Positions 2,967-55,607 of a stretch of 64,000 nucleotides of DNA are shown here, piece by piece. Position 1 is the stretch's first letter, and each line of letters begins with the position of its first letter. The position numbers were made by a program, and so were the translations under genes. Below the pieces are notes generated by a model, which did no database searches, had not been told where the DNA came from, and saw nothing but the letters and a program-made list of their open reading frames with translations. The stretch spans positions 124,001 through 188,000 of the forward strand of contig NZ_JAAKGV010000018.1 in NCBI RefSeq assembly GCF_011043735.1, given 5' to 3'. Source of the stretch: Methylobacterium sp. DB0501. GTDB lineage: Bacteria > Pseudomonadota > Alphaproteobacteria > Rhizobiales > Beijerinckiaceae.

Positions 2967-3769
2967 CGCTGCCCCCGGGCCGTGGCGCGGTCTGTCGGCA
3001 TCCTGGCGTCGAACCGTCCGGGACGAGGAAAGGGTACGAGGCTTTTCCTCCTTCCCGGCAGATCCCGGGCTCGGCAAGCGCCAGGCGAGGTCGGACAAGC
3101 CCGACTTCGCGCGGGGAACGGCCCGCTCGTCTCTTTTCACGAACAGCCCTGCGCCCGCGGGGAGAGGTTCCGCGCCGTTCCTTGGAAACTCTCCCGGACG
3201 GCTTCGCGCCGGGCGCGGCAGGGGGCCGTGCCCGCCCGGAGAGACGATATCCCCCGGATCTTGGCGGAGATGGTGAAATCGTCCCGTGTTCTCGCTTATT
3301 TTAAATAATAAAAACTATAGACGCTCCTGCTTGGAGGGCATTATCGTAATAATGCTCATCACGTCGCCCCGGCCGATTTCCGCCCGGTGAGGGAATTGCT
3401 TCGATGAACCTGTGGCCCTCGCGCCGGCCGGGATCCGGGCCGGATCGCTCCGTGTCCTCAGCGCCGCGCCGCAGCATCGGCGCTCTATCTTCACGGACAA
3501 AGGTCCGGTCCGAGAGCGGGGCCACCGCCGACCACGACCGACATGCCGCCCGGAGCCTGCACGCCTCTCAGAGACGGGTGGCCGTCAAGCAGTCCGACCG
3601 CGACGGGTTGATCGGCTGACGGCGAGAGGATGGACTCAAAACGCAGTTGCACACTGCCCGCTGTCTCTCTTGGTCATCCTGGGGATCGTCTTCGGAGAAT
3701 CCCGGGACGACCGGGGAGGATGCGGCTCCGGTCGCTCCCATCACGCCGACACTCGACAGAAGGACCCCC
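2967..3769. other. Long intergenic region with hairpins
   Basis: I find no convincing gene in these 803 bases; open frames here have no Shine-Dalgarno sequence and compositionally look like noise. An imperfect stem-loop lies at 3161-3196 (GGAGAG arms). An AT-rich patch at about 3296-3325 interrupts the GC-rich sequence and could be a promoter. A palindrome of the dispersed family described at 3673-3711 lies just before the next gene. Confidence 0.5.
3673..3711. repeat. Palindromic intergenic element (REP-like)
   Basis: Imperfect inverted repeat: GTCATCCTGGGGAT on the left pairs with AATCCCGGGACGAC on the right, around a short GC-rich loop. Its GTCAT(C)CnGGG ends resemble the ends of the palindromes near 26.2 and 47.6 kb, so it is probably one member of a dispersed family. 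It could also act as a transcription barrier before the SsuA-like gene. Confidence 0.45.
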
Positions 3770-4717
3770 ATGACGCTCACCCGACGCACCTTCGCCGCCG
3801 GCACCGCCGCCGCCCTGGCGGCCTTCGCGACGGCGGGCCCGGCCCGGGCCGACCGCGTGCTGCGGGTCGGCTACCAGAAATACGGCACGATGCTGCTGCT
3901 GAAGGCCCGCGGCAGCCTCGATGCGGCGCTCAAACCCCTCGGGTTCCGGGTCGAGTGGCGGGAATTCCCGGGCGGGCCGCAACTCCTCGAGGCGCTCAAC
4001 GCCAAGGCCGTCGATCTCGGCATCGTCGGCGAGACGCCGCCGATCTTCGCGCAAGCGGCCGGCGTGCCGCTGGTCTACCTCGCCCATGAGCCGCCCGCCC
4101 CGAAGAGCGAGGCGATCGTCGTCCGGATGGACAGCCCGATCCGCACGGTCGCCGACCTGAAGGGGAAGACGGTCGCGCTCAACAAGGGCTCGAACGTCCA
4201 TTACCTGCTGGTGCGGGCGCTGGAGGCGGCCGGCCTCGCTTATGCCGACATCCAGCCGGTCTTCCTCGCCCCGGCCGACGGGCGGGCGGCGTTCGACGGC
4301 GGGTCGGTCGAGGCCTGGGTGATCTGGGACCCGTTCCTGGCCGCCGTCGAGATCGCGAGCGGCGCCCGGGTGCTGCAGGACGCCACCGGGCTCGCGGCGA
4401 ACCACCAGTTCTACGTCGGCGAGCGCTCCTTCGTGGAATCGCAGCCGCAGGCCGTCGACGCGGTGCTGGCGGCAATCGCCGAGGTCGACCGCGAGACCAA
4501 CGGGGTGACCGAGGCGGCGGCGCGCGAACTGAGCCCCGCCATCGGCATGCCCGTGCCGATCCTCTCCCGCGCGCTCGCCCGCCAGAGCTGGGGCGTCGCC
4601 CCCCTCGGGCCGGAGGTGGTCGCCGGGCAGCAGCGCATCGCCGACACCTTCCTGCGCCTCGGGCTGGTGCCGCGGCCGATCCGGGTGGCGGACACCGTGC
4701 GGCAGGCGCGGGCCTGA
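3770..4717 (+). CDS. SsuA/TauA-like ABC transporter substrate-binding protein
   Basis: 315-residue periplasmic binding protein of the aliphatic sulfonate/nitrate/taurine family. The N-terminus is a probable Tat signal (LTRRTFAAG, cleavage near ARA). The mature part has the type II binding-protein layout: YQKYGTMLLLKARG for the first strand and helix, LEALNAKAVDLGIVGETPPIFA, DLKGKTVALNKGSNVHYLL, and VEAWVIWDPF. These resemble SsuA more than NrtA. The start is set by AGAAGGA seven bases before ATG 3770. No permease or ATPase gene is adjacent, which is unusual because ssuA normally sits with ssuBC. It is therefore either an orphan that uses a transporter encoded elsewhere or a relic of a larger cluster. 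Confidence 0.85.
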   Translation: MTLTRRTFAAGTAAALAAFATAGPARADRVLRVGYQKYGTMLLLKARGSLDAALKPLGFRVEWREFPGGPQLLEALNAKAVDLGIVGETPPIFAQAAGVPLVYLAHEPPAPKSEAIVVRMDSPIRTVADLKGKTVALNKGSNVHYLLVRALEAAGLAYADIQPVFLAPADGRAAFDGGSVEAWVIWDPFLAAVEIASGARVLQDATGLAANHQFYVGERSFVESQPQAVDAVLAAIAEVDRETNGVTEAAARELSPAIGMPVPILSRALARQSWGVAPLGPEVVAGQQRIADTFLRLGLVPRPIRVADTVRQARA

Positions 4718-4802
4718 AGCCTGACAGCGCGGTGCTCGGGCGCTATATCGGTCGGCATCGTCGATCGCGGGCTACGGTACCCGCCAGCCTGCGGAGTCCG
4801 CC

Positions 4803-5894
4803 ATGTCCCGCGACCCGGTCCCCAGCCTCCTCGACCCGATCCGGCTCGGCGCGCTCGCGGCGCGCAACCGGGTGCTGATGGCGCCGCTCACCCGCGCCCG
4901 CGCCACCCGCGACCACGTGCCGACCGACGTGATGGTGGAGTACTACGCCCAGCGCGCCTCCGCCGGGCTGATCATCTCGGAGGCGACCGGGATCAGCGCG
5001 CAGGGGCTCGGCTGGCCCTACGCGCCGGGGATCTGGAGCGAGGCGCAGGTCGAGGCCTGGAAGCCGGTCACCGCGGCGGTGCACGCGGCGGGCGGCCTGA
5101 TCGTCTCGCAGCTCTGGCACATGGGGCGGGTGGTCCATCCGAGCCTGCCCGGGCGCGGGCAGCCGGTCTCGTCCTCGGCCACCACCATGCCGGGCCTGGC
5201 GCGCACCTACGAGGGCAAGGCGCCCCATGTCGAGGCCCGCGCCATGACGGAGGACGACATCGCCGCCGTTCTCGACGATTACCGCCGGGCGGCCCGGAAC
5301 GCGATCGAGGCCGGGTTCGACGGGGTGCAGATCCACGCCGCGAACGGCTACCTCATCGACCAGTTCCTGCGCGACAACGCGAATTTCCGCACCGATCGCT
5401 GGGGCGGGTCGATCGAGAACCGCATCCGCCTCCTGCGCGAGGTGACCGCGGCGGTGGCCGGGACCGTCGGGCCCGACCGCACCGGGGTGCGCCTGTCGCC
5501 GAACGAGGAGCGCCAGGGCGTCAACGACAGCAACCCCGAGCCCCTGTTCGAGGCGGCCTCCACGGCCCTCTCCGAGATCGGCATCGCCTTCCTGGAGGTG
5601 CGCGAGCCGGGCTACGACGGCACGAACGGCAAGGCCGAGCGCCCGCCGGTGGCGCCGCGCATGCGGGCGGCGTTCCGGGGCGCCTTCGTGCTCAACTCCG
5701 ATTACGACGGAGCGAAGGGGCAGGCCGCGCTCGAGGCCGGCGCAGCCGACGCCATCGCGTTCGGGCGTCCGTTCATCGCCAATCCGGACCTGCCGCGGCG
5801 GATCGCGCACGGGATTCCGCTTTCCGCCGACGACACCGAGACCTGGTATGTCGGCGGGGCGAAGGGCTACGTCGACTACCCGCCGGCCGCGTGA
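4803..5894 (+). CDS. Old Yellow Enzyme-type alkene reductase (NemA-like)
   Basis: 363-residue FMN-dependent NAD(P)H reductase with a TIM-barrel fold. OYE hallmarks are present: MAPLTRARA near the N-terminus, QLWHMGRVVHP around residue 105, the substrate-binding pair H178/N181 followed by Y183 in QIHAANGYLIDQF, and the RWGGSIENR segment at about 200-208. These enzymes reduce activated C=C bonds and nitro or nitrate ester compounds, often in the cytosolic response to electrophiles. The gene stands alone and ends 15 bases from the stop of the convergent rdrB gene, so the defence locus abuts it directly. Confidence 0.93.
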   Translation: MSRDPVPSLLDPIRLGALAARNRVLMAPLTRARATRDHVPTDVMVEYYAQRASAGLIISEATGISAQGLGWPYAPGIWSEAQVEAWKPVTAAVHAAGGLIVSQLWHMGRVVHPSLPGRGQPVSSSATTMPGLARTYEGKAPHVEARAMTEDDIAAVLDDYRRAARNAIEAGFDGVQIHAANGYLIDQFLRDNANFRTDRWGGSIENRIRLLREVTAAVAGTVGPDRTGVRLSPNEERQGVNDSNPEPLFEAASTALSEIGIAFLEVREPGYDGTNGKAERPPVAPRMRAAFRGAFVLNSDYDGAKGQAALEAGAADAIAFGRPFIANPDLPRRIAHGIPLSADDTETWYVGGAKGYVDYPPAA

Positions 5895-5909
5895 CGGGCC
5901 GGAGACCGG

Positions 5910-8486
5910 TCATGGCCGGTCGAGGGATCGGTCGTCCGGCCGGAACCGGTAGGTGCGGGCGCTGTCGCCGATCGTCTCGACGAGGCGCGCCGCCTCCGGC
6001 GCCGCCTGGCCGAAGCTGTCCCGCAGGGCGGCGGCGACCGCCGCGTACTCGTTGCGCAGGCTCGTGGCGAAGATCCCCGGATCGTCGCTGCCGATCACGA
6101 CCGTCGGACGGTTGGCGAGCGCCGGCCCCGCGACGCCGAGCCAGCGGAAGAGGTGATGCTCCGCGATCGTGTCGTAGAAGCTGATGCGGACGTTGCTGGT
6201 GGGCAACGCCTCGAGCGCCACCCCGCGGCGGTTGACGTCCCCGAGCACGCTGTCCTGCAGGAAGGCCAGCGCCTCGACCGGGAGGAGCGTCGCCGCGACC
6301 TCCACCCGCCCCTGCCAGACCTCGCGCCCGAGGCTCTGGCGCCGGGCATAGACCGCGTAGGCCGAGCCGGCCGTCTCCACCGTCTTGGCGATCAGCGCCA
6401 GCTCGGCCGCCCGCGGGCGGTCGATGACGGTGTCCGCCAGCCGGCTGGCGTGCCGCGCGACGTTCGCGGCGGTGAGGGGCTCGCCCCGGCGGGCGACCGC
6501 CCGCTCGACGATCCGCATCTCCAGGGCGTCGAGGCACCGGAGTTCCCAGGCGCGGTGCAGCAGCGCCGGGCCATGCACCTCGCCGTAGAGGGCCTCGGAC
6601 AAGGTCGCGATCCGGTCCGCAAGCATCAGGACCTCGCCCTCGTAGCCGCCGTGCTCGGCAAGCCTGCGATAGGCGAAGACCGCGTCGTCGAGGGCGTCGA
6701 TCCGCGGCAGGTAGGCCCGCCGCGCCGTCCGGGCGATCCAGAGTTCCGGCGCGATCCCGAGGGCGGTGGCGTGGCCGATCCGGTCGCCGGAGCGCAGGTC
6801 GAGGAAGGTGAGCGCCTCCGCCACGGCGCGGATGCCCGAGACGAGGTGCCGGAAATCCTCGCCGGCATGGAAGGTCGCCCGGGGGATGCCGGCCGCGCGG
6901 GCGAGGCGGAAGGCCGGCGCGAACGGCTCGGGCGGGGCGTGGAACTCGTTCGCGGCCGCATCGATCCCGCGCACCAGGGCGCGGGCGATCCGGTTGCCTT
7001 CCAGCAGGATCTTCAGCCCCCGCGCCTGCGCCTGCAGCGCGAGCCGCAGGTCGCTGTCGCGGCAGCCCCGGGCCCGGTCGGACGCCGGCCTGGGCGGCTT
7101 CTTGATGAAATGCGCCACGAGGGAGAATTCCGCCCCGGGCCGGCCGGCGCGCGGGGGCGCCTCCTGACAGGATCGCCCGGCTCGCGGGCCCGGATCGTGG
7201 CAGGGACGGCCGAGCAGGCAGGGCGGCGGCTCCCCGGCGAGGTTGCGCGTCCCGTGGCGGCAGCCCCGGAAGGCGAGGTAGTCGTCGACGATGGTGGTGA
7301 TGAGGGCGCGGGTCCCGGCCACGTCGTCCTTGGGGGCGAAGCGCCCTTCGAGATGCGCCAGGGTGTCGAAGGGCGCGCGGCCGTTGAGCTGGCGGAAGCG
7401 CATCTCGTAGCGCTCCTCGATCCCCCACCGGGTGCCCACGAAGGTGTATTTCTGGAACTGGTCGAAGCCCCGCTCGTCGGCCTGCTGGACCACGATCCGG
7501 CCGATCTGGTTGAGCACGATCAGGCTGTGGTAGAGGCCCGTGCCGATGACGCAATCGGGCGCCCGCGCGAGGGCTTGCAGGGCGGCGTAGAGGAAGGCCG
7601 CCTCCTCGACGATGAGGGCGGCGGGCGGGCCGCCGGCATGGACGACGCGGCCCGGCGGGACGTGCAGCGGGCCGCCCATCGGGGCGCGCCAGGCGCGGTC
7701 GCTGCGGTCGTCCGCCATGGCGCGCAGCAGGCCCTGCATCCCCCAGGCGACGGGCGGGCCCGGCCGGGGCGCGCCGAGCCGGCAGGCGATCTCGGCGGCG
7801 ACCTGCCGGCGCACGCGGCGGACGGCGCGCAGGCGCCGGTACAGCCCGAGCGGCGTGAGGCCGGGCTCCATCTGCTCGTAGAGCTCGGCGGCGGGCTCCC
7901 GGTTGGCGTTCCAGGCCTCGGCGAGTGCCTTGTGGAACAGGTCGGGATCGCGGCAGATGGAGGGCCAGAGCACGTCGAGCTCGGTCGAGCCGTTCAGGTG
8001 CATGTGCAGCTCGAACAGCCCCTTGCGCGCGACGAGGTCGCCCAGTCCCGGGTCGCACGGCCCGATCAGCGCCGTGTCGCCGATCTCCCGCTCGAGGAAG
8101 GGGCGGGGATTCTCCGTCGGGCGCGGGCCGGTCCCCTCGTCCACCAGGAAGGCCACGATCACCGCGAGCGGCGAGATGTAGGGCAGGAGCTCGTGCCACT
8201 CGACGAAGCCGTCGACCCGCACCGCGACGCGCCCGTCCCGCCGCTCCAGGAAGCGCTGGGCCAGCCGCGTCAGGACCAGGAGCGGAATCTCGCTCACGTC
8301 CTTCGCGGAACCCAGCCGCTCATCGAGATAGCCCTTGTAGAAGTGGTCGGGCCGGTCGAGGTCGGTCCGCCGCTCGGCGATGAAGATCCGCCGCCGCGTC
8401 TCCGCGATCGAGGGCAGCTCGCCGCGCCCGAACAGGGCGAGGGCGTGGTGGTCCGCGAAGGCGCGGCGGTCGATGAGGGCGGCCAT
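5910..8486 (-). CDS. rdrB: RADAR defence deaminase RdrB (adenosine-deaminase fold)
   Basis: 858 residues. All adenosine deaminase landmarks are visible in order: the zinc pair H161-M-H163 in FELHMHLNGS, H540 with catalytic E543 in TFHAGED, H572 in RIGHATAL, LPTSN at 761-765, and the zinc/catalytic aspartates D801-D802 in GSDDPGIF. The protein is more than twice the length of housekeeping adenosine deaminase, with a long N-terminal part and large insertions, as in RdrB. A Pro/Cys-rich stretch at about 415-450 looks disordered. Known RADAR systems (RdrA plus RdrB) deaminate adenosine in RNA or ATP during phage infection; RdrB forms a large shell with RdrA. The start lies 6 bases after the rdrA stop, with no clear Shine-Dalgarno sequence, suggesting translational coupling. 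Assignment rests on motifs, size and neighbour. Confidence 0.85.
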   Translation of the reverse strand: MAALIDRRAFADHHALALFGRGELPSIAETRRRIFIAERRTDLDRPDHFYKGYLDERLGSAKDVSEIPLLVLTRLAQRFLERRDGRVAVRVDGFVEWHELLPYISPLAVIVAFLVDEGTGPRPTENPRPFLEREIGDTALIGPCDPGLGDLVARKGLFELHMHLNGSTELDVLWPSICRDPDLFHKALAEAWNANREPAAELYEQMEPGLTPLGLYRRLRAVRRVRRQVAAEIACRLGAPRPGPPVAWGMQGLLRAMADDRSDRAWRAPMGGPLHVPPGRVVHAGGPPAALIVEEAAFLYAALQALARAPDCVIGTGLYHSLIVLNQIGRIVVQQADERGFDQFQKYTFVGTRWGIEERYEMRFRQLNGRAPFDTLAHLEGRFAPKDDVAGTRALITTIVDDYLAFRGCRHGTRNLAGEPPPCLLGRPCHDPGPRAGRSCQEAPPRAGRPGAEFSLVAHFIKKPPRPASDRARGCRDSDLRLALQAQARGLKILLEGNRIARALVRGIDAAANEFHAPPEPFAPAFRLARAAGIPRATFHAGEDFRHLVSGIRAVAEALTFLDLRSGDRIGHATALGIAPELWIARTARRAYLPRIDALDDAVFAYRRLAEHGGYEGEVLMLADRIATLSEALYGEVHGPALLHRAWELRCLDALEMRIVERAVARRGEPLTAANVARHASRLADTVIDRPRAAELALIAKTVETAGSAYAVYARRQSLGREVWQGRVEVAATLLPVEALAFLQDSVLGDVNRRGVALEALPTSNVRISFYDTIAEHHLFRWLGVAGPALANRPTVVIGSDDPGIFATSLRNEYAAVAAALRDSFGQAAPEAARLVETIGDSARTYRFRPDDRSLDRP

Positions 8487-8492
8487 CGGCGG

Positions 8493-11400
8493 TCAGGCGG
8501 TGGATTTCGGCGGAGACTTTCGCCGGGTGGTGCGCGGGGCTTTCGCCGTCCCGGTGGCGGCCCTCCTGGCGGCTGCGCTCCCCAGGGGCGGGGGCTGGCC
8601 GTCAACGGCTGAATCGTCGATCTGAGCATGGTTCGCCAGCGTTCCGGCCAGGTTCTGTCCCACGGGCGATTCCGGCGCGCGCTTCGTGGCCTGGATCGGA
8701 ATGGTGTTGAGGAGCGGGTACAACCCGTCGAAGCGACGGGGGTACCGATTGTCCTTGGCCCTGAACGTCAATTCGTAGGACGGCTTGATGCCGTCGGCGG
8801 ACATGCACATGACGTATTGTTGGTATATCTCTTCCGAGTAATTCTTCTTGCCGTCTTCGATGTCTTCGTCCTTGCGGGCCAGGAAATATCCCCAGAGCGG
8901 ACAGGTGAAGATCGTGTGGAAGATCCACATCTTGCGATCGTTGTCCGGGATGATTTCGGTCGGATGATAGATGCTTTTGAGGAGTTCCAGGAAGGCCGCC
9001 CCGGAGGCGGTCGGGTTGCGGATGGTCTTCGTCGTCGGAGCGTGCCCGGCGGCCTTCAGGGCCTCGACGCCGACGGCGTGCAGGAACACGACGATGGCCC
9101 GATGCATCAGGACGCCGAGATAGCGCGTCCTCGTGTGCCGCAGGTCCTCGACGACGCCGTCGAACGCCTCGGCGAACCGCGCCCAGGTCCGGGCCAGCGT
9201 GAGGGGCGAGATCGACGGGGGCGGCTCCTTCAGGACGGCGTCGAGCCAGGTATCCAGGAGCACGTGCAGGGCCCGCTCGTCCGATCCGGGCCCGGTCCCG
9301 GACTCGGCCTGGATCGCCGTGTCGTCGGCCTCGTCCTCCGCATCCTCCTCGACCGCGGTGGGCGCGGCGCCCGCCCCGGTGCCCGGGCCGCCGGAGGCGG
9401 GGATCGGATAGCTGCCGAGGAGCGAGAACTCGGACAGGAACTCGGCGATGGCGTGGGCGCGCTTCTGGCCCGGCTTCATCCGCGCCTCGATGGCCAGGAC
9501 CTCGCCCACGAAGCCGATCAGGCGGAGGATGGAGTAGCTGGTGCTCTCGGCCAGCTGGCCGCTGCGCGCGCGGGCGGCGGGAATCATGACCACGGCCGCG
9601 ATTTCCGGCTGCAATCGCCTCTCCAGGCCCGTCAGGGAATTGGCGAAGACCGCCGTCAGCCCGGGTTCCGACCCGCGCAGGTAGTTCTGGCCCGCCGCCA
9701 TGAGCGTGCGATGATAGGCGCGCAGCGGGACGGGCAGGGCGCCGACGAGTTCCTTCTTCTGCTCGCTCCCGCCCTCCTGCGCGATCTGGCAGAAGGTTTC
9801 GCGGTCGAATTCACCGGCGAGCCCGTACAGGCGTTCGGTGTAGCCCTGCTGGCGCGAGCGCCCCAGGTTCAGGGTCGCCGGGATGCTGATGCCGCTGAGG
9901 CGCAGGCCGGGCTGGATCTTGCCGTCCTCCACCGCTTCCCAGGCCCAGAGGCGGCTCGCGAACTGGATCGAGTCCTCGTTCGGCGCGACCTTGAGGTGGG
10001 CCCACAGCTTCGCGCGCTTGTCGGTCGAAACGGTGTCGATCCGGTCGATCAGGTTCTTGATCGTGCAGATCTTGAGCCAGTAATCGAAGATCGTCCGCGG
10101 ATGCGTCCGAAACAACGCGGTCAGCGTGCCGGCGAGGAGCAGGGCGACGAGGTCCTCGTCCTCGGCCCTGCCGTGGGGGAAGAACCCCGCCATCGTCGGC
10201 CAGAGGTCCTTGGCGGTCATCCATTGCGACAGCAGCCCGACGATGCGGTCGGGATCGACCTCCAACAGGGCCTCGTGATCCAGGTCGAGGGTCATCAGGG
10301 CCTGCGACGCGACCGAGCGGAGCGCGTCGAGGGCGTCCTGGGTCCAGGCGAAGCCCTGGTCGCTCCCGCCCTGCGGGTCGGGCCGCCCCTCGCCGGCACC
10401 CGGGGCGGCCGCCCCGGCGCCGATCAGGCGCCAGGCTCCCGCCAGCGCCTGGAGGCTGCTGCGCAGCGGGAGGCGCAGGAGGGTCGACCGGATGACCGCG
10501 TTCTCCTCGGCGCCGACCTGGGCGAAGAGGCGGTCCGCGTAGCGCGCGAGGGCCGTGCGCTCGGACATCGGATCGCCGTGGCCCCGCTTGCGCGAGACGA
10601 AGGACAGGTTCGACCGGTCGGCATAGTACAGCAGATTGTGCAGATCGAGGCGGTTCTCGGGCCGCGCGATCTTGATCAGGTACTGATCCTGGAGAACGTC
10701 GACCATGATGCAGATCTGATCGAGATAGGAATTTTCCGGCGTGCAGGCCGTCTCGATCTGGACGAAATTCTTGTCCATCTGCTTCCACTGCTGCTGTCGC
10801 ACCAGCAGATTGTAGAGCTTCAGGTCTCCGGCCAGGACGACTTTGAGTTGCGGGGCAGCGAGATACTTGCGCAACGCCTCCAGAACCGGCCAGCCGCGCT
10901 CGAACGAGGTGTCGACGTCGTCGATGGCGAGGACGAACGCGTCCATCTTCAGGAAGGTGCAGGCCTCCGCCACGTAGCGCCGGAATGCCCGCTCGAAGCC
11001 GCCGGCGGCCCCGGCCCGGTCGAGGCCCTTGTCGAGGATGAAGTCCGGATCGGCCCAGTCCTTGCCCTGGAGCATCGACTCGCCGATGCCGTCGAGGAGG
11101 GTCAGGCCGCCTGCCAGATCGTAGAGCCTGGTCTTGAACGCGTCGTAGCCCGCCCTGTTTCCCGATTGGCGCTCGTGCATGTGGTCCACCGCCGCCTTGA
11201 TCTTCTCGATGATGATCACGACGATGTGCTGCTTGGCCTCGATCAGCGTCGGATCGACGATGCCGAGACTGTAGAGGCGGCCGATCTGGTCCGACGGCAC
11301 GGTGCCGTCGAGGTGGTCCCTGAAATCCGCGGTCCCATGCTGGACATCCTGAATCAACGTCAGGATGTCGGTCAGGAAGGTGGTCTTTCCGTCGCCGCGG

Positions 11401-11657
11401 CGGGCGCTGATCAGGATCGCGTCGTGGCTGCGATTCGGCATCACGTCGAGCGCCTGAGGCCGCCCGGAGCAGGCGTCCTCCTTCTCCGGCTCCTCGGTCG
11501 GCATCGCCACCAGCTTGGCGAGGACGCGCCGAAAGGCGTCCTGGCGGATGACGCGGGTCGCCCCGGCACCCGCCGCACGGCGCGAACCGAGACGCGTCGC
11601 AGGCCCTGCGCCGAGGGCGTCCAAGTCGATGATGATGTCGTCGCTGCCCGGTGACAC
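8493..11657 (-). CDS. rdrA: RADAR defence ATPase RdrA (large P-loop NTPase)
   Basis: 1054 residues, cytosolic. A P-loop lies at residues 85-93 (ARRGDGKTT, with Ala where the first Walker Gly is usual) and a Walker B at 241-247 (FVLAIDD), followed by VDTSFERG and a sensor-like LKVVLAGDLK at 271-280. The rest is a long, mostly helical C-terminal region without a motif I recognise; residues around 750-790 are acidic and low-complexity. Size, KAP/AAA-like ATPase core and position immediately before an RdrB-type deaminase match RdrA of RADAR, which senses infection and channels substrate to RdrB. Start is GTG at 11657, preceded by AGGGG. No third RADAR gene (RdrC or RdrD type) is present on either side. 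Confidence 0.83.
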   Translation of the reverse strand: MSPGSDDIIIDLDALGAGPATRLGSRRAAGAGATRVIRQDAFRRVLAKLVAMPTEEPEKEDACSGRPQALDVMPNRSHDAILISARRGDGKTTFLTDILTLIQDVQHGTADFRDHLDGTVPSDQIGRLYSLGIVDPTLIEAKQHIVVIIIEKIKAAVDHMHERQSGNRAGYDAFKTRLYDLAGGLTLLDGIGESMLQGKDWADPDFILDKGLDRAGAAGGFERAFRRYVAEACTFLKMDAFVLAIDDVDTSFERGWPVLEALRKYLAAPQLKVVLAGDLKLYNLLVRQQQWKQMDKNFVQIETACTPENSYLDQICIMVDVLQDQYLIKIARPENRLDLHNLLYYADRSNLSFVSRKRGHGDPMSERTALARYADRLFAQVGAEENAVIRSTLLRLPLRSSLQALAGAWRLIGAGAAAPGAGEGRPDPQGGSDQGFAWTQDALDALRSVASQALMTLDLDHEALLEVDPDRIVGLLSQWMTAKDLWPTMAGFFPHGRAEDEDLVALLLAGTLTALFRTHPRTIFDYWLKICTIKNLIDRIDTVSTDKRAKLWAHLKVAPNEDSIQFASRLWAWEAVEDGKIQPGLRLSGISIPATLNLGRSRQQGYTERLYGLAGEFDRETFCQIAQEGGSEQKKELVGALPVPLRAYHRTLMAAGQNYLRGSEPGLTAVFANSLTGLERRLQPEIAAVVMIPAARARSGQLAESTSYSILRLIGFVGEVLAIEARMKPGQKRAHAIAEFLSEFSLLGSYPIPASGGPGTGAGAAPTAVEEDAEDEADDTAIQAESGTGPGSDERALHVLLDTWLDAVLKEPPPSISPLTLARTWARFAEAFDGVVEDLRHTRTRYLGVLMHRAIVVFLHAVGVEALKAAGHAPTTKTIRNPTASGAAFLELLKSIYHPTEIIPDNDRKMWIFHTIFTCPLWGYFLARKDEDIEDGKKNYSEEIYQQYVMCMSADGIKPSYELTFRAKDNRYPRRFDGLYPLLNTIPIQATKRAPESPVGQNLAGTLANHAQIDDSAVDGQPPPLGSAAARRAATGTAKAPRTTRRKSPPKSTA

Positions 11658-12576
11658 GTCAGCCCCTGGGATCGTTTCGGTCGTTCTCCAGAGATGTTAG
11701 CGGCAGACGCGCGGCGGCGCTATCGATTAATGCTGTCACGTCCTTCGATATTTGGAAAATTGTTTTCGATGTGGACGGAAACGGCTATTTGGATTTTATC
11801 GTACTGAATAATTAATTGAAAAATTGCCATAAAAGACTTGCAGTATGAAGAAAAATTGCCGTCTCAAGCGAGAAAAATTTTCCTTTTGCGATGTTTTGTT
11901 GATCGTCTCACCTTATTGATTGTTAGTTTGTTCAAAGCAAGATTCGATCGAGAGCGATGAGAAGGATGTGAGGCCCGCGATGCCGCACCGTCGCACCTTT
12001 GCCTGGCGCGGGGCGGACGGAGCCGCGGCGCCGATCTCGGCACCCATGACACCCATGACACCCATGACACCCATGACACCCCTGGCGTCCTGACGCCTCG
12101 CCCCGCCCGTCATGCGATCAGGACGATTCCGCGGGTCCGCATGGCTTCCGGAGCCGGCCAGGTCCACGACACGCCGGCGCAGCCGAGCCCCTTTGGCGGG
12201 CGGCTCCTCGCCCACCTTCCCCCCTGTCCCGGACGACTGAGGCGAGAGCGAAAGGAGATCCGGGAAAGGCGAGGCTGACGAGGAGCCGCCAGGTGGTTCG
12301 GCGGGGCAGAGATGCCTTGTCGTGTCCCGCGCGGAGCCCGTCTACCTGGACCTCGCCAGGGGACGGCAGTCGAAATTTGTCTAAAATGTTTCCGGATCCT
12401 TGGATGTGCCGGATTGTGCCGGTGGAGCATCGGAAATCTTCGACGATCGACTTGCGGGTGCAAAGCGTCACCCGTAGGCTTCCCCAGCGCACACCACGAG
12501 ACAATAGAGATCACGCGGCAGGGCGCCGGTCCTCGAGGCCGGTGCGCGGCCGCTCCAGCCCGATCGCTATCCAGGA
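11658..12576. other. AT-rich promoter region upstream of rdrA; no gene seen
   Basis: About 919 bases without a believable gene. Positions 11700-11960 are strikingly AT-rich compared with both flanks, with T and A runs, and probably contain the rdrA promoter on the minus strand; such composition is common where defence islands have been inserted. A short tandem repeat lies at 12042-12077. The stretch 12080-12576 is GC-rich and probably includes the mdtABC promoter. Confidence 0.5.
12042..12077. repeat. Four tandem copies of a 9-bp unit
   Basis: Four perfect head-to-tail copies of ACCCATGAC, followed by a partial ACCC. Read on the minus strand the unit is GTCATGGGT. Perfect short repeats in otherwise single-copy sequence are prone to slippage, so copy number may vary between strains. 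It lies in the non-coding interval between rdrA and the mdtA-like gene. Confidence 0.85.
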
Positions 12577-13872
12577 ATGTCGACGATGCGCGGTTTCGTC
12601 TGGGGTCTCGGTGCCGGCCTGGCCGTCGCATTCGGCACGTTCGCCGCGTGGCCGCAGGCCGCCGCGTTCCTCGCGCCGCTCCAGGGGCGGATCCAGGCGC
12701 AGCTCCAGAACCAATGGGCCGCGTGGCGGCCCTCCCCCGACGCGCCCGGGCCCACGGCGGAGCCGCGGCCGGACCTGCCCGCCGTCGCCCCCGCCCGCGT
12801 CGCCGTCGAGGCGGCCCGCAGCGCCGACGTGCCGATCACGCTGTCGGGCATCGGCACGGTGCAGGCCTACAACACCGTCAACGTGCGCTCGCGCATCGAC
12901 GGCGAGATCACCAAGATCCTGTTCCGCGAGGGCCAGGACGTGAAGGCCGGCGATCCCCTCGCCCTCATCGATCCGCGCCCGCTCCAGGCCCAGGCCGACC
13001 AGCAGGAGGCCACCCGCCTGCGCGACCAGGCCCTCCTCGACGGCGCCCTGCTCGATCTCCAGCGCTACGAGACCCTGATCCTCAAGGACTTCGCCAGCCA
13101 GCAGCAGCTCGACCGGCAGCGGGCGCTGGTCGCGCAGTACCGGGCCCAGATCAAGAGCGACGAGGCGCAGGTCGCCTATGCCCGCACCCAGCTCGCCTAC
13201 ACCACCGTCGCGGCGCCGCTCTCCGGGCGCACCGGCATGCGCCTCATCGACCAGGGCAACACCGTCCGCGCCGGCGACGCCGCGGCGATCGTGGTGGTGA
13301 CCCAGCTCCAGCCGATCTCGGTCGTGTTCACGCTGCCGGCCACCGCCGTGGCGAGGAGCCGCCTGACCCCCGGCGAGGCGGCGGCGCCGGTCCGGGTCTT
13401 CGCCGCCGACGACCGCACCCTGCTCGATTCCGGCACGGTCGAGCTCGTCGACAACCAGGTCGATCCGACCACCGGCACCATCAAGCTCAAGGCGAGCTTT
13501 CCCAATGCCAGGCTGACGCTGTGGCCCGGCAACTTCGTCAACGGCCGCATCACCGTCGAGGTCCGGCCCCAGGGCGTCACCATCCCCCTGGCGGCGCTCC
13601 GCCACGGCCCGCGCGGCGACTTCGTATACGTGGTCCGGGACGGCAGCAGGGAGGGAGAGAAAGAGGGGCCCACGGACGGGCTCCACGTCGCGACCCGCGC
13701 CGTCACGCCGGGCCAGGCGAGCGGCGGCTGCGTCCTCGTCGAGAAGGGCCTGAAGGCCGGCGAGCGCGTCGTCACCGAGGGGCATTACCGGCTGGAGAAC
13801 GGCACCCCGGTCACGATCATCGAGAAGCCCGAGCCGCCGCGGCCGGAGCCCTCGCCCCGGACCCCGAGCTGA
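12577..13872 (+). CDS. mdtA: RND efflux periplasmic adaptor subunit, MdtA-like
   Basis: 431-residue membrane fusion protein linking an inner-membrane RND pump to an outer-membrane channel. An N-terminal hydrophobic anchor (residues about 5-30) is followed by a short Pro-rich linker, the first half of the lipoyl domain (GTVQAYNTVNVRSRIDGEI), a helical hairpin with coiled-coil character (about 130-200), the second lipoyl half (TTVAAPLSGRTGMRLIDQG) and a beta-barrel domain. This pattern matches MdtA of MdtABC. The C-terminus is Pro-rich. Start ATG 12577 follows CCAGGA; an in-frame ATG at 12586 is an alternative. It is the first gene of a three-gene operon. Confidence 0.9.
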   Translation: MSTMRGFVWGLGAGLAVAFGTFAAWPQAAAFLAPLQGRIQAQLQNQWAAWRPSPDAPGPTAEPRPDLPAVAPARVAVEAARSADVPITLSGIGTVQAYNTVNVRSRIDGEITKILFREGQDVKAGDPLALIDPRPLQAQADQQEATRLRDQALLDGALLDLQRYETLILKDFASQQQLDRQRALVAQYRAQIKSDEAQVAYARTQLAYTTVAAPLSGRTGMRLIDQGNTVRAGDAAAIVVVTQLQPISVVFTLPATAVARSRLTPGEAAAPVRVFAADDRTLLDSGTVELVDNQVDPTTGTIKLKASFPNARLTLWPGNFVNGRITVEVRPQGVTIPLAALRHGPRGDFVYVVRDGSREGEKEGPTDGLHVATRAVTPGQASGGCVLVEKGLKAGERVVTEGHYRLENGTPVTIIEKPEPPRPEPSPRTPS

Positions 13873-13884
13873 CGGCGGCCGGTC

Positions 13885-16800
13885 GTGTCGGCCCCCTTCA
13901 TCCTGCGCCCGATCGCGACGGCGCTCCTGACCCTGGCGCTGATCCTGCTCGGGATCGTCGGCTACCTCGCCCTGCCGGTCTCGGCCCTGCCGGCGGTGGA
14001 TTTCCCGACCATCCAGGTCACCACCGCCTATCCGGGCGCCTCGCCCCAGGTGATCGAGACCTCGCTTACCGCGCCGCTGGAGCATTACCTCGGCCAGATC
14101 ACCGGCCTGACCCGGATGAGCTCGACCAGCGCCGCCGGCACCAGCCAGATCACCCTGCAATTCGACCTCGCCCGTCCGATCGCCGTCGCCGCCCAGGACG
14201 TCCAGGCCCAGATCAACGCCGCCTCGGGCTGGATGCCGGTCGCCCTGCTGCCAGGCCCGCCGACCTACCGCCTCGTCAACCCGGCCGACGCGCCGATGCT
14301 GATCCTGGCGCTCACCTCCGAGATCCTGCCCCTGCACGAGGTCAGCGACTATGCCCAGACCGAGGTGATCCAGAAGCTGTCGCAGGTGCCGGGCGTCGGC
14401 GCCGTGACGGTCGAGGGCGACCAGACCCGCGCCGTGCGCCTCAGCGTCGATCCCGCGCGCCTCGCCGGGCTCGGCCTGTCGCTGGAGGATGTCCGGCGGG
14501 CGGTGGCGGCGGCCTCCGTCAACACGCCCAAGGGCAGCCTCGACGGCCCGCGCCAGGCCTTCCAGGTCGGCGCCAACGACCAGCTCCTCGATTCCGCGGC
14601 GTTTCGCGACGTGGTGATCGCCTATCGCAACGGCGCGCCGGTCCACCTGCACGACATCGGCAGCACCCATGACGGGGTCGAGAACGCCGATCTCGCCGCC
14701 TGGTTCGACGGGAAACCCGCCATCCTCCTCGACGTACAGCGCCAGCCCGGCGCCAACACGCTCGAGGTCGTCGACGCGATCCACGCCCTTCTGCCGACGC
14801 TGCGCGCCGCCCTGCCGCCCGCCCTCAAGATCGCGGTCGTCACCGACCGCACGGTCTCGATCCGGGCGGCCATCGCCGACGTAGAGGTCACCCTGGTCCT
14901 CACCGTGGCGCTCGTCGTGCTGGTGGTGTTCCTGTTCCTGCGCAAGCTCTGGGCCACGGTGATCCCGAGCATCGCGCTCCCGGTCTCGCTGGTGGCGACC
15001 TTCGGGGCGATGGCGCTTCTCGGCTACTCCCTCGACAACCTGTCCTTGATGGCGCTCACCATCGCGTCGGGCTTCGTCGTCGACGACGCCATCGTGATGA
15101 TCGAGAACATCGTGCGCCACATCGAGGCCGGCGAGGCGCCTTTGCCCGCGGCCCTGAAAGGGGCGCGCCAGATCGGCTTCACGGTGGTCTCGCTCACCGT
15201 CTCCCTGGTGGCGGTGTTCATCCCGCTGCTGCTGATGGGCGGCCTCGTCGGGCGGCTGTTCCGGGAATTCGCCGTCACCCTGTCGCTCGCGGTGGTGATC
15301 TCAGGGGTCGTCTCGCTGACCCTGACCCCGATGATGTGCGCCCGACTCCTCAAGCCCGAGCCTGCGGACCACCGTCCGGGCCGGTTCTACCGCTGGAGCG
15401 AGGCCGGGTTCGAGGCGCTGACGCGCCTCTACATGCGCGGCGTCGACGGCGTGCTCGCCCATCGCCGCGCGACGCTGGCGGTGTTCGCCCTCACGGCCGC
15501 GGCGACCGCCTGGTGCTACGCGGCGGTGCCGAAGGGCTTCATCCCCGAGCAGGATACCGGCCTCCTCGTCGGCACGACCGATGCGGCGCCGGACATCGCC
15601 TTCCCGGCCATGGCCGAGCGCCAGGGCCGCATCGCCGAGATCCTGCGCCGGGATCCGGCGGTGCGGGCGGTGTCGAGCTTCGTCGGCGCCGGCACCGTCA
15701 ACCCGACCCTCAATACCGGCCGGCTCTACCTCGATATCGGCCCGGCCGACCGGCGCGAGCCGGCTCCGCTCGTCATCGAGCGCCTGCGCCGGGCCGTCGA
15801 GGGGGTGCCGGGCATCGCCCTCCACCTCCAGGCGACGCAGGACCTCACCATCGAGACGCGGGCCGCGCGCACCCAGTACCAGTACACGCTCCAGGCCCTC
15901 GACGGCGACAGCTTGCGCCGGTGGAGCCGGCGTCTCGTCGCGGCCCTGCGCGACGAGCCGGCGCTCGCCGACGTGGCGAGCGACCAGCAGGACGAGGGCC
16001 TGCAACTGGCGCTGACCATCGACCGCAAGGTGGCGGCCCGCTACGGCATCACCGTCGATGCCCTCGACCAGGTCCTCTACGACGCCTTCGGCCAGCGCCA
16101 GATCGCCACGGTCTACGGCGCCCTCACCCAGTACCGGGTGGTGCTCGGCGTCGATCCGGCGCTCAAGGAGACGCCGGACGTCCTCGACCGGATCTACGTC
16201 ACCCCCGGCACCTCGCAGGCGCTGACGGCCGGCGACGCCGCCAACGGCCTCGGCGCCGGCTACCGCCAGGCCGGGGCGGCGGTGCCGCTCTCCGCCTTCG
16301 TGCGGGTCGAGCGCCGGACGGCGCCGCTCTCGATCACCCACCAGGGCCTTTTTCCGGCCGCGACCCTGTCGTTCAACGTCGCCCCCGGCTCCTCCCTCGG
16401 GGCCGCCCTCGACGCTCTCGGCCGGGCCGAGCGCAGGATCGGCCTGCCCGACACGGTGACGACCGGGCTCTCGGGCGCCGCGGCCGAGTTCGCCGCCTCG
16501 CTCAAGAGCACCGGCATCCTGATCCTGGCGGCGATCGTCACGGTCTACATCGTGCTCGGCGTGCTCTACGAGAGCGTCATCCACCCGCTGACGATCCTCT
16601 CGACCCTGCCCTCGGCGGGCCTGGGCGCGCTGCTGGCCCTGATGCTCGCCGGCATGCCGTTCGACCTGATCGCAATGATCGGCATCATCCTGCTGATCGG
16701 CATCGTGAAGAAGAACGCCATCATGATGGTCGACTTCGCCCTGGAGGCGCAGCGTGAGCGCGGGCTGTCGCCCGAGGCGGCGATCCGCGAGGCCTGCGCC

Positions 16801-17037
16801 TTGCGCTTCCGCCCGATCATGATGACGACCTTCGCGGCTTTGCTCGGGGCGCTGCCGCTGGCCCTCGGCGAGGGGATCGGGGCCGAGCTGCGCCGGCCGC
16901 TCGGGGTCGCGATCGTCGGCGGCCTCGTGGTGAGCCAGGTGCTCACCCTCTACACCACGCCGGTGATCTACCTCGCCTTCGACGCCCTGACGCGCCGCCG
17001 CAAGCCCGCGCCGTCCGCCCTCGCGGCGGCGGAGTAG
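13885..17037 (+). CDS. mdtB: RND efflux permease subunit, MdtB-like
   Basis: 1050-residue inner-membrane proton/drug antiporter. The proton-relay aspartates of TM4 are D400-D401 (GFVVDDAIVMIENI) and the TM10 lysine is K942/K943 (GIVKKNAIMMVDF). The usual two periplasmic porter domains and a repeated 6+6 TM layout fit the length. It starts at GTG 13885, 12 bases after the mdtA stop. Two different RND subunits encoded in tandem after one adaptor is the arrangement of MdtABC/MuxABC pumps, where B and C form a heterotrimer. The substrate cannot be told from sequence; enteric relatives export bile salts, novobiocin and similar compounds. Confidence 0.92.
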   Translation: MSAPFILRPIATALLTLALILLGIVGYLALPVSALPAVDFPTIQVTTAYPGASPQVIETSLTAPLEHYLGQITGLTRMSSTSAAGTSQITLQFDLARPIAVAAQDVQAQINAASGWMPVALLPGPPTYRLVNPADAPMLILALTSEILPLHEVSDYAQTEVIQKLSQVPGVGAVTVEGDQTRAVRLSVDPARLAGLGLSLEDVRRAVAAASVNTPKGSLDGPRQAFQVGANDQLLDSAAFRDVVIAYRNGAPVHLHDIGSTHDGVENADLAAWFDGKPAILLDVQRQPGANTLEVVDAIHALLPTLRAALPPALKIAVVTDRTVSIRAAIADVEVTLVLTVALVVLVVFLFLRKLWATVIPSIALPVSLVATFGAMALLGYSLDNLSLMALTIASGFVVDDAIVMIENIVRHIEAGEAPLPAALKGARQIGFTVVSLTVSLVAVFIPLLLMGGLVGRLFREFAVTLSLAVVISGVVSLTLTPMMCARLLKPEPADHRPGRFYRWSEAGFEALTRLYMRGVDGVLAHRRATLAVFALTAAATAWCYAAVPKGFIPEQDTGLLVGTTDAAPDIAFPAMAERQGRIAEILRRDPAVRAVSSFVGAGTVNPTLNTGRLYLDIGPADRREPAPLVIERLRRAVEGVPGIALHLQATQDLTIETRAARTQYQYTLQALDGDSLRRWSRRLVAALRDEPALADVASDQQDEGLQLALTIDRKVAARYGITVDALDQVLYDAFGQRQIATVYGALTQYRVVLGVDPALKETPDVLDRIYVTPGTSQALTAGDAANGLGAGYRQAGAAVPLSAFVRVERRTAPLSITHQGLFPAATLSFNVAPGSSLGAALDALGRAERRIGLPDTVTTGLSGAAAEFAASLKSTGILILAAIVTVYIVLGVLYESVIHPLTILSTLPSAGLGALLALMLAGMPFDLIAMIGIILLIGIVKKNAIMMVDFALEAQRERGLSPEAAIREACALRFRPIMMTTFAALLGALPLALGEGIGAELRRPLGVAIVGGLVVSQVLTLYTTPVIYLAFDALTRRRKPAPSALAAAE

Positions 17038-17041
17038 CCGC

Positions 17042-20000
17042 GTGAACCTCGCCGCCCCCTTCGTCGCGCGGCCGGTCGGCACCGCGCTCATCGCGCTCGG
17101 GCTGCTGCTGGTCGGCCTCGTCGCGCTGGTCCGGCTGCCGATCGCCTCGCTGCCGAACGTCGAGCGCCCGACCATCGTGGTCCAGGCGAGCCTGCCCGGC
17201 GCCAGCGCCGACACCATCGCGACCTCGCTGGCCCAGCCGCTGGAGGACCGCCTCGGCCTGATCGCCGGCCTCACCGAGATGAGCGCCCACAGCGGGACGG
17301 GCGGCACCCAGATCGTGCTGCAATTCGCGCTCTCGAAGAGCATCGACGCCGCGGCGGGCGACGTGCTGGCGGCGATCAACGCCGCGAGCCGGGACCTGCC
17401 GCAGGGGATGCCGCGCCCGCCGGTCTACTATAAGGCCAACCCGTCGAACCTCGCGGCGATCGTGCTGGCGCTGACCTCCGACATCCTGCCGCCGAGCGAG
17501 GTCTACGAGCTTGCCGACAGCGTCGTCTCGGCCCGGCTCTCGGCCCTGCCGGGCGTCGCCCAGGTCACCGTCTCGGGGGCCGAGCGGCGGGCGGTGCGGA
17601 TCCGGGTCTCGCCGCGCCTGATGGCGAACATGCAGCTCTCCCTGGAAAGCTTGCGCGCGGCGATCACCGATGCGAGCGCGAACCTGCCGAAGGGCGCGGT
17701 GACGCTGGCCGACCAGACCTGGACGCTTTCGGCCGACGACCAGCTGATCCGGGCCGAGGACTGGGCCGAGGTGATCGTCGCCTTCCGCGACGGCCGGCCG
17801 ATCCGCCTCGGCGACGTCGCCGAGGTGACCGACAGCGTCATGGACACCCGGACCGCCGGCTGGTTCAACGGCGAGCGCGGCGTGGTGGTCTTCGTCCGCA
17901 AGCAGCCCGACGCCAACGTGGTCGAGACGGTGGACGCCGTGAAGGCGGCCCTGCCCGAACTCGCCCGCTGGCTGCCGCCCTCGCTCAAGGTGCACACGCT
18001 CTACGACCGCACGGTGCTGATCCGCGAATCGGTCGCGGAGGTCGCCCGCACCATCGCGATCGCGATCGGCCTCGTGATGGCGGTGGTCGGCCTGTTCCTG
18101 CGCCGGCTGGCCGCCACCCTGGTGCCGGTCGTGAGCATCCCGGTGGCGCTCGCGCTCACCGTCGCGGCGATGGCTTCGCTCGGCTACTCCCTCGACAACC
18201 TGTCGCTGATGGCGCTCACGATCGCGGTCGGCTTCGTGGTCGACGACGCGGTGATCGTCGTCGAGGCGGTGGTGCGCCTGATGGAGGAGGGCCGCTCCGC
18301 CCGTGAGGCCGCCCTGGAGGCGGCGCGCCGGATGGGCGCCACCGTCGTGGCGATCTCGGCCGCGCTCGCGGCGGCCCTGCTGCCGGTGCTGCTGATGCCC
18401 GACGTGGTCGGGCGCTACTTCCGCGAGTTCGGGCTGACGCTGGTGGCGGCGATCGCCGCCTCGGCGCTGGTCTCGCTCACCCTGGTGCCGATGCTGTGCG
18501 CGCGGCTGCCGCGGCGGGGGATTCCGGCGCGCCCGGTCAGGGCCTCCCGGGCGGCCCGCGCCTACCGGGCGAGCCTCGCCGGGTGCCTGCGCCGGCCGGG
18601 CCCGGTGCTCCTCGCCCTGGGGCTCAGCGCGGCGGGCTCGGCCGGGCTCTACGCCGCCCTGCCGAAGGGCTTCATGCCGACGCAGGATACCGGGATCCTG
18701 CAGGTGCGCACGGTCACCAGCCCGAACGTCTCCTTTTCCGCCATGGAGCGGCTGCAGCGCCAGGTCGCCCGGGCGATCCTGCAGGAGCCGGCGGTGGCGG
18801 CCCTGAGTTCCTTCATCGGCGGCAGCGGCGCGGTGCTCAGCAACGGCAACCTCTATGTCGGCTTGAAGCCCCTGGCGGCGCGGCCCGGGATCGAGGCGGT
18901 GGTCGACCGCCTGCGCGAGCGACTCGCCCGGGTGCAGGGGGTGCGCACCGTCTTCACGCCGCTGCAGGACCTCAGCCTCGGCGCCTCGGGCGGCGCGGCG
19001 CGCTATCAGTACACGCTGGTCGGCCCGGACCCGGACGCTCTGTGGACCGCCTCGGAGGCGATGCGGCGGCGCATGCGGGCGATGCCGGAGATCACCGACG
19101 TGGTGACGAGCGCCGAGCGCGCCGGGCTCGAGGCCGGTCTCGTCATCGACCGGCAGCGGGCAGCGCAGTTCGGGGTGACGCCGCGGGCGATCGACAACAC
19201 CCTCTACGACGCGTTCGGCCAGCGCCAGATCGAGATGATCTACCTGCCGTCGAACTACGCCCACGTGGTGCTGGAGGTCGAGCCGGGCGCGCAGGAAAGC
19301 CCGTCGGCGCTCGCCGGCCTCTACGTGCCCGGCGCGAGCCCCGACCGGCCGCAGGTGCCGCTCTCCGAGGTGACGCGGCCGAGCCGCGGGCACGCCGCGA
19401 TGTGGCTGCGCCACCTCGACGGGATGCCCGGCGTGACGCTCTCGTTCAACACCCGGCCCGGCGTGGTGATCGGCGACGCGCTGGCGGCGATCCGCGCGGC
19501 GGAAGCGGCCCTGCACTTTCCCGACGAGATCAGGACGGGCTTTCGCGGCGAGGCGGCGGAGGCGGGCAAGTCCGGGTCGCGCCAGCTGCTGCTGTTCCTC
19601 GGCGCCGTCTTCGCGATCTACGTCGTGCTCGGCGTGCTCTACGAGAGCCTGGTCCACCCGCTGACCATCCTCTCGACCCTGCCCTCGGCGGTGATCGGCG
19701 GGCTCATGGCGCTCCGGGTCACCGGCACGCCGCTGACGCTGGTCGCCTCGATCGCCTGCGTGCTCCTCGTCGGGATCGTGATGAAGAACGCCATCCTGAT
19801 GGTCGACGTCGCCCTCGCGCTCCAGCGAGAGCGGGGGCTCGCGCCCCGCGACGCGATCCTGGAGGCGGCGCTCGCCCGGGCGCGGCCGATCCTGATGACC
19901 ACGCTGGTGGCCGCCCTGAGCGCGGTGCCGCTGGCGCTCGGCACCGGGCCGGGGCACGAATTGCGCCAGCCGCTGGGGATCACGGCGGTGGGCGGGCTCG

Positions 20001-20314: not shown

Positions 20315-20716
20315 ATGACCACGACCGCAGAGGTCCGCAGGGGCCACCCGAACACGCTCATCTCGCAGTTTCTGGGCGAGGTCCAGGAGCCGCGGCAATC
20401 GTACATCTCGTCCGAACGCTTCGCGGAGCGACTGGGCATGAGCAAGATGGCATTGGCCAAGGTTGCCGGTGTGCACCGCAACACATTGCACGCTAATCCG
20501 AATTCGGAACAGCTGCAGGATCGCCTCCGGGAGATCACGAAAATCCTGATGTCGGCGAGCGAATTGACCGGAGACATCGAGACCGCGACTTACTGGCTCA
20601 AGAACGAGCCCATCAAGGATTACAGAGGTAAGACGCCTATCGAGCTGGTGGCTTCCGGTCACTGTGAAGCCGTTCTGGCGTATATAGAAGATATCAAGAA
20701 TGGTGCGATCGGGTGA
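20315..20716 (+). CDS. Xre/MbcA-type antitoxin (type II TA)
   Basis: 133-residue DNA-binding antitoxin. An N-terminal helix-turn-helix lies at about residues 32-60 (ERFAERLGMSKMALAKVAGV). The C-terminal half, with TATYWLKNEPIKDYRGKTPI and a terminal helix, matches the toxin-binding MbcA/ParS/Xre-C domain found beside RES toxins. The stop codon overlaps the start of the toxin gene by 4 bases (GTGA), so the two are translated together. The family neutralises RES by covering its active site and autoregulates transcription. A weak AAGG at 20301-20304 precedes ATG 20315. Confidence 0.9.
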   Translation: MTTTAEVRRGHPNTLISQFLGEVQEPRQSYISSERFAERLGMSKMALAKVAGVHRNTLHANPNSEQLQDRLREITKILMSASELTGDIETATYWLKNEPIKDYRGKTPIELVASGHCEAVLAYIEDIKNGAIG

Positions 20717-53218: not shown

Positions 53219-53515
53219 CGATAGGCTCCGTAAGGGGTTGTTAGCCGTAGCGGCCCGTCAGGCCGCCACGGTTTGCTCCGCCCCAGAACAAGGAAATGTT
53301 TCGCGTCCGGATGAGGACCTGCAGCAGCGGCGCCCCAAGGTCTTTCGCCGGCGTGCTTCGCCATCGACAAGTCGATGGCGAAGCATTCAGCGCCCTGGCA
53401 TCGGCGCCCATTCGATCTTACCGTGCACCTCCAAGCGAGCTCGTTCCAGGAAACTGCAGTATCATATCAAACATGCTTCTGCGTCATCATGTTCGCCAAG
53501 TGTGATGCAGCGGTA

Positions 53516-55573: not shown

Positions 55574-55607
55574 CGGTGCCGTCCCTTCGATTGTATTGCT
55601 GGTGGAA

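Follow-up and report, generated by a model that had tools for sequence, protein, structure and literature searches.

A probable standalone rdrAB RADAR system of an alphaproteobacterial clade in Methylobacterium sp. DB0501

RADAR is a phage defence thought to poison the adenosine triphosphate (ATP) pool of the cell. The 64,000-nucleotide stretch of Methylobacterium sp. DB0501 analysed here (contig NZ_JAAKGV010000018.1, positions 124,001 to 188,000; hereafter the window) carries two genes, rdrA and rdrB, that make up a locus of the standalone rdrAB subtype of RADAR. They lie in tandem on the minus strand at 5910-11657, 6 bases apart, on contig 10 of a 7.58-Mb genome that holds a single copy of each. 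A preliminary description, made from the letters alone, had read them as a 1054-amino-acid (aa) ATPase followed by an 858-aa deaminase, and the intact open reading frames (ORFs) bear this out. Frames of 1008 aa and 819 aa lie opposite them on the plus strand and look like by-products of high G+C; the G+C at third codon positions (GC3) of the two genes (0.90 and 0.96) and their homology point to the minus strand as the coding one. G+C is 74% in rdrB, 67% in rdrA, 59% in the upstream region and 70% in the whole window, and one promoter-like match (0.1 expected) falls at 11822-11793 of the minus strand. Downstream of rdrB, 15 bases lead to a convergent gene for a flavin mononucleotide (FMN) oxidoreductase, and three minus-strand frames (100-173 aa) just 5' of rdrA have no Pfam match, nor does codon-position G+C call a gene there. 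No Csx27 or SLATT gene was found among the genes adjoining rdrA and rdrB, in agreement with the earlier statement that no accessory gene is adjacent.

In profile searches both proteins match RADAR models. PADLOC matched RdrA at 1e-21 and RdrB at 5.4e-36, and at E values up to 1 it returned RADAR models only for both frames, bar one weaker CARF-ADA match to RdrB, the best stretch of which (CARF_ADA, residues 492-583) lies inside the deaminase part, no separate CARF search having been made. The best NCBIfam matches are the RdrA (1.8e-31) and RdrB (9.7e-49) equivalogs, both under their cut-offs, and the nearest solved proteins in a sequence search of the PDB are E. coli RdrB (2.4e-89) and E. coli RdrA (7.5e-20). 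RdrB also matches Pfam A_deaminase above its cut-off (2.2e-10) and misses the NCBIfam adenosine-deaminase cut-offs. A genome scan yielded 21 loci, and in 20 of them, down to 28% identity, an rdrA match lies 5' of rdrB on the same strand; the stretch of the remaining locus (L013) starts at rdrB. This tandem order, together with the RADAR-only PADLOC matches, argues that the pairing is not chance.

The zinc-binding and catalytic residues listed for RdrB in the preliminary description (H161, H163, H540, E543, H572, D801 and D802) are all where it had placed them, as are A85, K91 and T92 of RdrA (Table 1). The RdrB model, with a predicted local distance difference test score (pLDDT) of 86.4 and a predicted template modelling score (pTM) of 0.88, matches E. 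coli RdrB (8hr7_C) from residue 5 to 851, large insertions included, with a VIA Z of 40.6 and a root-mean-square deviation (rmsd) of 3.0 over 740 residues. The next structure is a single-domain adenosine deaminase (Z 25.9 over 316 residues), and Foldseek gives 4e-39 for E. coli RdrB against 1e-4 for the next match.

The AAA+ residues of RdrA are likewise present, namely G90, K91 and T92 of Walker A, D246 and D247 of Walker B, D278 of sensor 1 and R399 of sensor 2, and they are kept in 18 of 18 RdrA rows, save one row with Ser for T92. E. coli numbering was mapped through L014 as a stand-in. The L014 RdrB can be aligned gap-free with the solved E. coli protein for 798 residues, and the L014 RdrA closely resembles its solved E. 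coli counterpart. On this mapping, E. coli G81, K82, T83, D221, D222 and D253 align with G90, K91, T92, D246, D247 and D278, and sensor 2 R377 falls on R399 (identical in all 18 rows) after allowing a one-residue gap. The RdrA model (pLDDT 73.5, pTM 0.73) matches E. coli 8hr8_H over residues 7-992, C-terminal helical lobe included (Z 31.8, rmsd 3.5, 757 residues), as well as 8fnw_M (Z 32.2, rmsd 4.3, 736 residues) and S. suis RdrA (Z 19.5 over 516 residues), and Foldseek retrieves E. coli RdrA at 1e-25. The best non-RADAR structure listed reaches Z 11.7, and AAA+ proteins match the model only partially (Z 12). Note here that both models were built with no templates, from input alignments (A1, A3) that contain E. 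coli-type relatives. This structure comparison, which the preliminary description had proposed as its check, found RdrA and RdrB similarity and no better unrelated ATPase-deaminase pair; with PADLOC, the solved E. coli sequences and the scan loci, it upholds the RADAR identity and the rdrA-rdrB order given there.

Table 1. Positions in the window of the two genes, of residues and loops in their products, and of the segment that distinguishes the site from G106
Feature	Position	Strand	Basis or remark
rdrA, 1054-aa AAA+ ATPase, GTG start	8493..11657	-	intact ORF
rdrB, 858-aa deaminase, ATG start	5910..8486	-	intact ORF
RdrA Walker A, residues 85-92, Ala first (A85)	11382..11405	-	alignment; Ala in 10/11 alphaproteobacterial RdrA rows
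RdrA clade-specific loop, ~residues 187-212	11022..11099	-	alignment; 4 residues longer than E. coli-type RdrA
RdrB zinc motif H161-x-H163	7998..8006	-	aligns with E. coli RdrB H152/H154; His in 32/32 covering rows
RdrB four-cysteine loop, C409-C440	7167..7262	-	between model strands 376-383 and 453-460
RdrB H540-xx-E543 (zinc ligand, catalytic Glu)	6858..6869	-	aligns with E. coli H498/E501; 34/34 rows
RdrB H572	6771..6773	-	aligns with E. coli H530; 34/34 rows
RdrB D801-D802	6081..6086	-	D801 in 33/33 covering rows, D802 in 31/33
Segment present here, absent from G106	5895..12443 (ends approximate)	.	holds rdrB and rdrA plus ~0.8 kb of upstream DNA richer in A+T

Ten of the scan loci are alphaproteobacterial (L002-L011, RdrB identity 40-59%) and eleven are others (28-31%). 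In a 31-row RdrB tree, the window joins L002-L011 and a Rhizobium phaseoli plasmid copy (L028) in an alphaproteobacterial clade of 12 members (support 99/98), and within it a five-row group (100/99) shared with the copies of Aureimonas and M. bullatum and two from Rhizobium; the alphaproteobacterial RdrBs L026, L035 and L036 branch outside this clade. The tree kept the columns of the cysteine loop discussed below, left out the partial sequences L038, L039 and L040, and carries warnings of long end branches (L066, L067, L009, L033) and of odd letter composition in eight rows, that of the window included. As for the alignments, A1 was made without L015 (near-duplicate) and L022 (match in several frames), A2 without L012, L013, L015 and L017 (rdrA split, absent, near-duplicate or cut), and A3 additionally without L016 (ambiguous letters). 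IMG/VR contributed five loci, the best segments of which are 29-33% identical, and the two of them in the tree fall outside the clade of the window; the phage records gave no match to the pair.

Two features set this clade apart. The RdrB loop holds cysteines at 409, 423, 429 and 440, and within the stretch that corresponds to residues 400-463, 11 of the 12 clade RdrBs have four or five cysteines, the four columns being occupied in 11, 11, 10 and 11 of the 12 rows. The 22 other RdrB rows, of which L038 and L039 cover the region only partly, have zero to two; this comparison was made without L022, L023, L031, L032 and L034 (broken, duplicate, near-duplicate or partial). Loop length is not a marker of the clade, as L035, L036 and L067 have long loops without the cysteines. 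The first Walker A residue of RdrA, Ala in ten clade RdrAs of 11, is Gly in all seven others. One clade member (L009) lacks both the cysteine loop and the Ala. At the level of aligned sequences, the Ala and the four-cysteine (Cys4) loop are thus shared features of an alphaproteobacterial RADAR branch. The preliminary description had singled out both as possible novelties; they are real, and they belong to the clade rather than to the window genome alone, in which RdrB has additional Pro-rich residues inside the loop relative to its clade. The loop falls in a stretch of the model where pLDDT drops to 52 (residues 431-440), and our guess from the sequence is that a structural zinc probably sits in it and makes a connection at the surface stiffer.

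The genomic setting points to a probable gain of the pair. A segment of about 6.5 kb is present in the window genome and absent from the same site in the genome of a relative, G106. There, contig G106:C10 (L060) aligns with window positions 3753-5887 (90% identical) and 12547-18198 (92%), and these flanks enclose 588 mostly unrelated bases vs 6659 in the window. In G106 the oxidoreductase gene (G106:C10:123711-124784) adjoins the HlyD gene (from 125408); weak, short similarity (E 0.015) begins 5' of the HlyD gene, from 12444. Full-length RdrB is patchy, being present in two of the 111 genus genomes, with a match in 2 of 397 genomes of the order and 6 of 385 of the class, the window's own genome being counted each time. 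A third genus match (G040; 77 residues, E = 2.6e-4, in a 346-aa frame) was assumed to be an ordinary deaminase and was not counted as RdrB. Given this rarity in the genus, gain is likelier than loss. A search for a mobile element across 5700-12800 found repeats that are mostly weak and high in G+C, plus a 9-base tandem repeat at 12041-12085, and an Rfam scan of 5000-14000 gave no match; the window contains no tRNA gene. Among the relatives, one pair sits on a plasmid typed as conjugative, one on a plasmid beside genes for a DNA cytosine methyltransferase and a Vsr endonuclease, and that of L003 beside an IS66 transposase. On two relatives' plasmids the NCBI annotation calls the rdrA and rdrB products 'hypothetical protein', so RADAR systems of this clade may be under-counted.

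No conserved third gene emerged when frames with relatives in at least two other loci were compared across 22 sources, several with stretches short on one side: apart from rdrA, rdrB and frames that overlap them, no frame has kin in most loci, and the few others recur in two to five loci. Up to 3 kb 3' of rdrB in 11 alphaproteobacterial loci, a Pfam scan of six frames found a transposase piece (L011), a recombinase (L010), an ABC-three-component (ABC-3C) domain (L009) and the IS66 transposase of L003, and no match among the scanned frames of L005 and L008. Some neighbours and copies among the relatives may be recorded here in their own right. In Azospirillum (L009 11737-12729), a gene with the ABC-three-component C-terminal domain (1.2e-13) about 0.4 kb 3' of rdrB hints at a defence cluster. 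On Rhizobium leguminosarum pRLN3 (L027 13438-15737), rdrAB is followed after about 0.9 kb by an adenylosuccinate-synthetase-family gene (2.6e-51) and a DUF7002 gene; it is curious to find an enzyme that uses inosine monophosphate next to a defence generating inosine nucleotides, and the closely related L003 pair instead has its IS66 transposase near that place. A VanZ-family gene about 70 bases 3' of rdrAB on a Cetobacterium plasmid (L066 5060-5491) is a possible membrane accessory, by annotation unlike Csx27 or SLATT. In Kluyvera (L022) the match to rdrB is spread over more than one frame, and the rdrA of Methylovulum (L012) is split over two; these are either broken copies or sequencing errors.

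With high confidence, we interpret the pair as a standalone rdrAB RADAR anti-phage system of the alphaproteobacterial RADAR clade, probably acquired horizontally. The gene pair, its residues, the folds, the presence and absence at one site and the clade carry this interpretation, while the action of the system is taken over from E. coli RADAR. There, RdrA rings sit on an RdrB shell, ATP and deoxy-ATP (dATP) are converted to inosine triphosphate and its deoxy form (ITP/dITP) on infection, and phage replication is blocked (PMC9994260). By analogy, RdrA of the window would assemble into an AAA+ ring with a C-terminal helical lobe that may detect a sign of infection, and the ring would dock on a hollow RdrB shell. 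The zinc-holding RdrB sites would convert ATP/dATP to ITP/dITP upon phage infection, this phage-triggered conversion being the most likely activity, and phage replication would stop and the cell arrest or die.

Several observations weigh against this interpretation. Both proteins miss the NCBIfam cut-offs by far (RdrA 109 of 600 bits, RdrB 167 of 800 bits), as do seven RdrBs and seven RdrAs of the clade scanned alongside. L014, the E. coli-type control, also stays under both (RdrB 111, RdrA 123 bits) and the Aliivibrio pair clears them (970 and 781 bits), so these cut-offs define one RADAR branch and do not exclude the window pair. Swaps at E. coli RdrA K150, E151 and R162 and at E. coli RdrB E595-E597 reduce or abolish defence (PMC9994260), and in the window the three crown residues align with Y171, D172 and G183, and the three-fold interface residues with a gap, E636 and V637, in an alignment of about 20-30% identity that may be locally off at residues that do not define the family. 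Since the E. coli interface residues are not kept in this alignment, the ring-shell assembly is uncertain, and we treat the changed contacts as a lead. The nearest neighbours are metabolic or transport genes by Pfam (a PHO4 transporter, a PAP2-domain protein, an NMT1-like binding protein and the FMN oxidoreductase on one side, an HlyD/AcrB efflux set on the other), and ten selected window proteins have no PADLOC match, so that no defence island is seen. Finally, the empty site is known from one genome (G106); in G035 about 60 kb separate the two flanking genes, and what precedes the HlyD gene in G003 is unlike both window and G106.

Other explanations were considered. The main effect of the pair might be to change adenosine to inosine (A-to-I editing) in RNA of host and phage, the activity originally described for RADAR of C. 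rodentium; PMC7699616 gives editing as the first proposed activity and, like PMC9994260, summarises the original report, and RdrA entries in the PDB bear the title 'RNA-loading state'. We consider this improbable, as PMC9994260 reports little editing during defence, finds ATP-to-ITP conversion and describes RdrB as unlike ADAR enzymes, and the best non-RADAR folds for our RdrB model are adenosine and adenosine monophosphate (AMP) deaminases. Of the RNA/ATP-deaminase label given in the preliminary description, the ATP part is the better supported one, as PMC9994260 favours mononucleotide deamination over RNA editing. A rival that we take more seriously, though still as unlikely, is a RADAR relative with the same folds and a different assembly or trigger, in which the Cys4 loop and the changed interfaces would lead to a different oligomer or to a switch that responds to redox state or zinc. 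The loop is clade-wide, the crown and three-fold interface residues are changed, and an RdrA loop longer by 4 residues directly follows the aligned E. coli crown residues (segment 188-218 is under pLDDT 50 in the model). However, RdrA is variable outside the ATPase across RADARs (PMC9994260), interfaces can drift together with the assembly unchanged, the folds agree with those of the E. coli subunits over the full length, and clade member L009 does without the cysteine loop.

Two more explanations were considered. A decaying, inactive copy seems very unlikely: we found nothing in its favour beyond the extra Pro-rich residues in the RdrB loop, whereas both frames are open, all catalytic residues are kept and the codon-position G+C pattern is strong. 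We give next to no credence to a housekeeping purine-salvage deaminase that lies by chance beside an ATPase, to which the A_deaminase match would lend some colour. Such adenosine deaminases are single-domain enzymes of about 350 aa that align with the 858-aa RdrB over only some 310 residues, and we rejected this candidate; the pair is moreover rare and absent from the G106 site, as fits the earlier statement that rdrB is not a nucleoside-salvage gene.

Comparison with known systems places the standalone rdrAB RADAR of the window among divergent members of the family, of which PMC9994260 counts 270 systems in 75 genera and 7 phyla. E. coli RADAR (8fnt, 8fnv, 8fnw, 8hr7, 8hr8) has the same gene pair, catalytic residues and full-length folds, at about 27% (RdrB) and 19% (RdrA) identity over structural alignments, but the window pair differs by the Cys4 loop, the Walker A Ala, the interface residues and a longer RdrA. 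The closest relatives (L002-L005, from Aureimonas phyllosphaerae, Rhizobium and Methylobacterium bullatum) are alike in RdrB (55-61% identity), the Cys4 loop, the Ala and the lack of a conserved third gene; their neighbours differ where examined, and the window alone of these has the extra loop residues. PMC7699616 distinguishes the subtypes rdrAB, rdrABC (Csx27) and rdrABCD (SLATT), and the window pair shares the rdrA and rdrB core with the Csx27- and SLATT-associated systems, that of C. rodentium included, but is without their accessory membrane gene. A SLATT gene follows the pair on an Aureibacter plasmid. Cad1, the CARF-fused deaminase of type III CRISPR (9c67, 8z3k) that is reported to turn ATP to ITP (PMC11645235), has the deaminase barrel in common, with about 330 residues aligning, all in the deaminase part.

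Elsewhere in the window, a RES domain (1.7e-26) at 20315-21246 on the plus strand, with an Xre_MbcA_ParS_C match just under the cut-off (5.8e-05) and GC3 lower than its neighbours, is likely an Xre/MbcA-RES toxin-antitoxin pair by sequence. A 420-aa RuBisCO large-chain family protein lies at 22520-23782 on the plus strand (7.6e-65; assigned at the family level, RuBisCO or RuBisCO-like). Three glycosyltransferase genes lie at 51407-56678 on the minus strand; one of them has a galactofuranosyltransferase N-terminal domain and another a galectin-like domain, and the low GC3 (0.64) of the two longest suggests recent gain.

For the RADAR family, the trigger and the reason for an assembly of up to 10 MDa are named as open questions in PMC9994260, the main text of which contains none of the words cysteine, Methylobacterium, Rhizobium or Alphaproteobacteria. 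We tentatively entertain a further idea, possible but short of probable, in which the clade would be a structurally separate RADAR branch with a Cys4 metal-binding knuckle, rebuilt RdrA-RdrB and RdrB-RdrB contacts, and a giant assembly or switching that differ, for example by way of a loop sensitive to zinc or redox state. To learn which contacts matter, it is natural to compare a divergent clade that keeps the folds but differs in its contact residues, and its Cys4 loop is a ready site for mutation.

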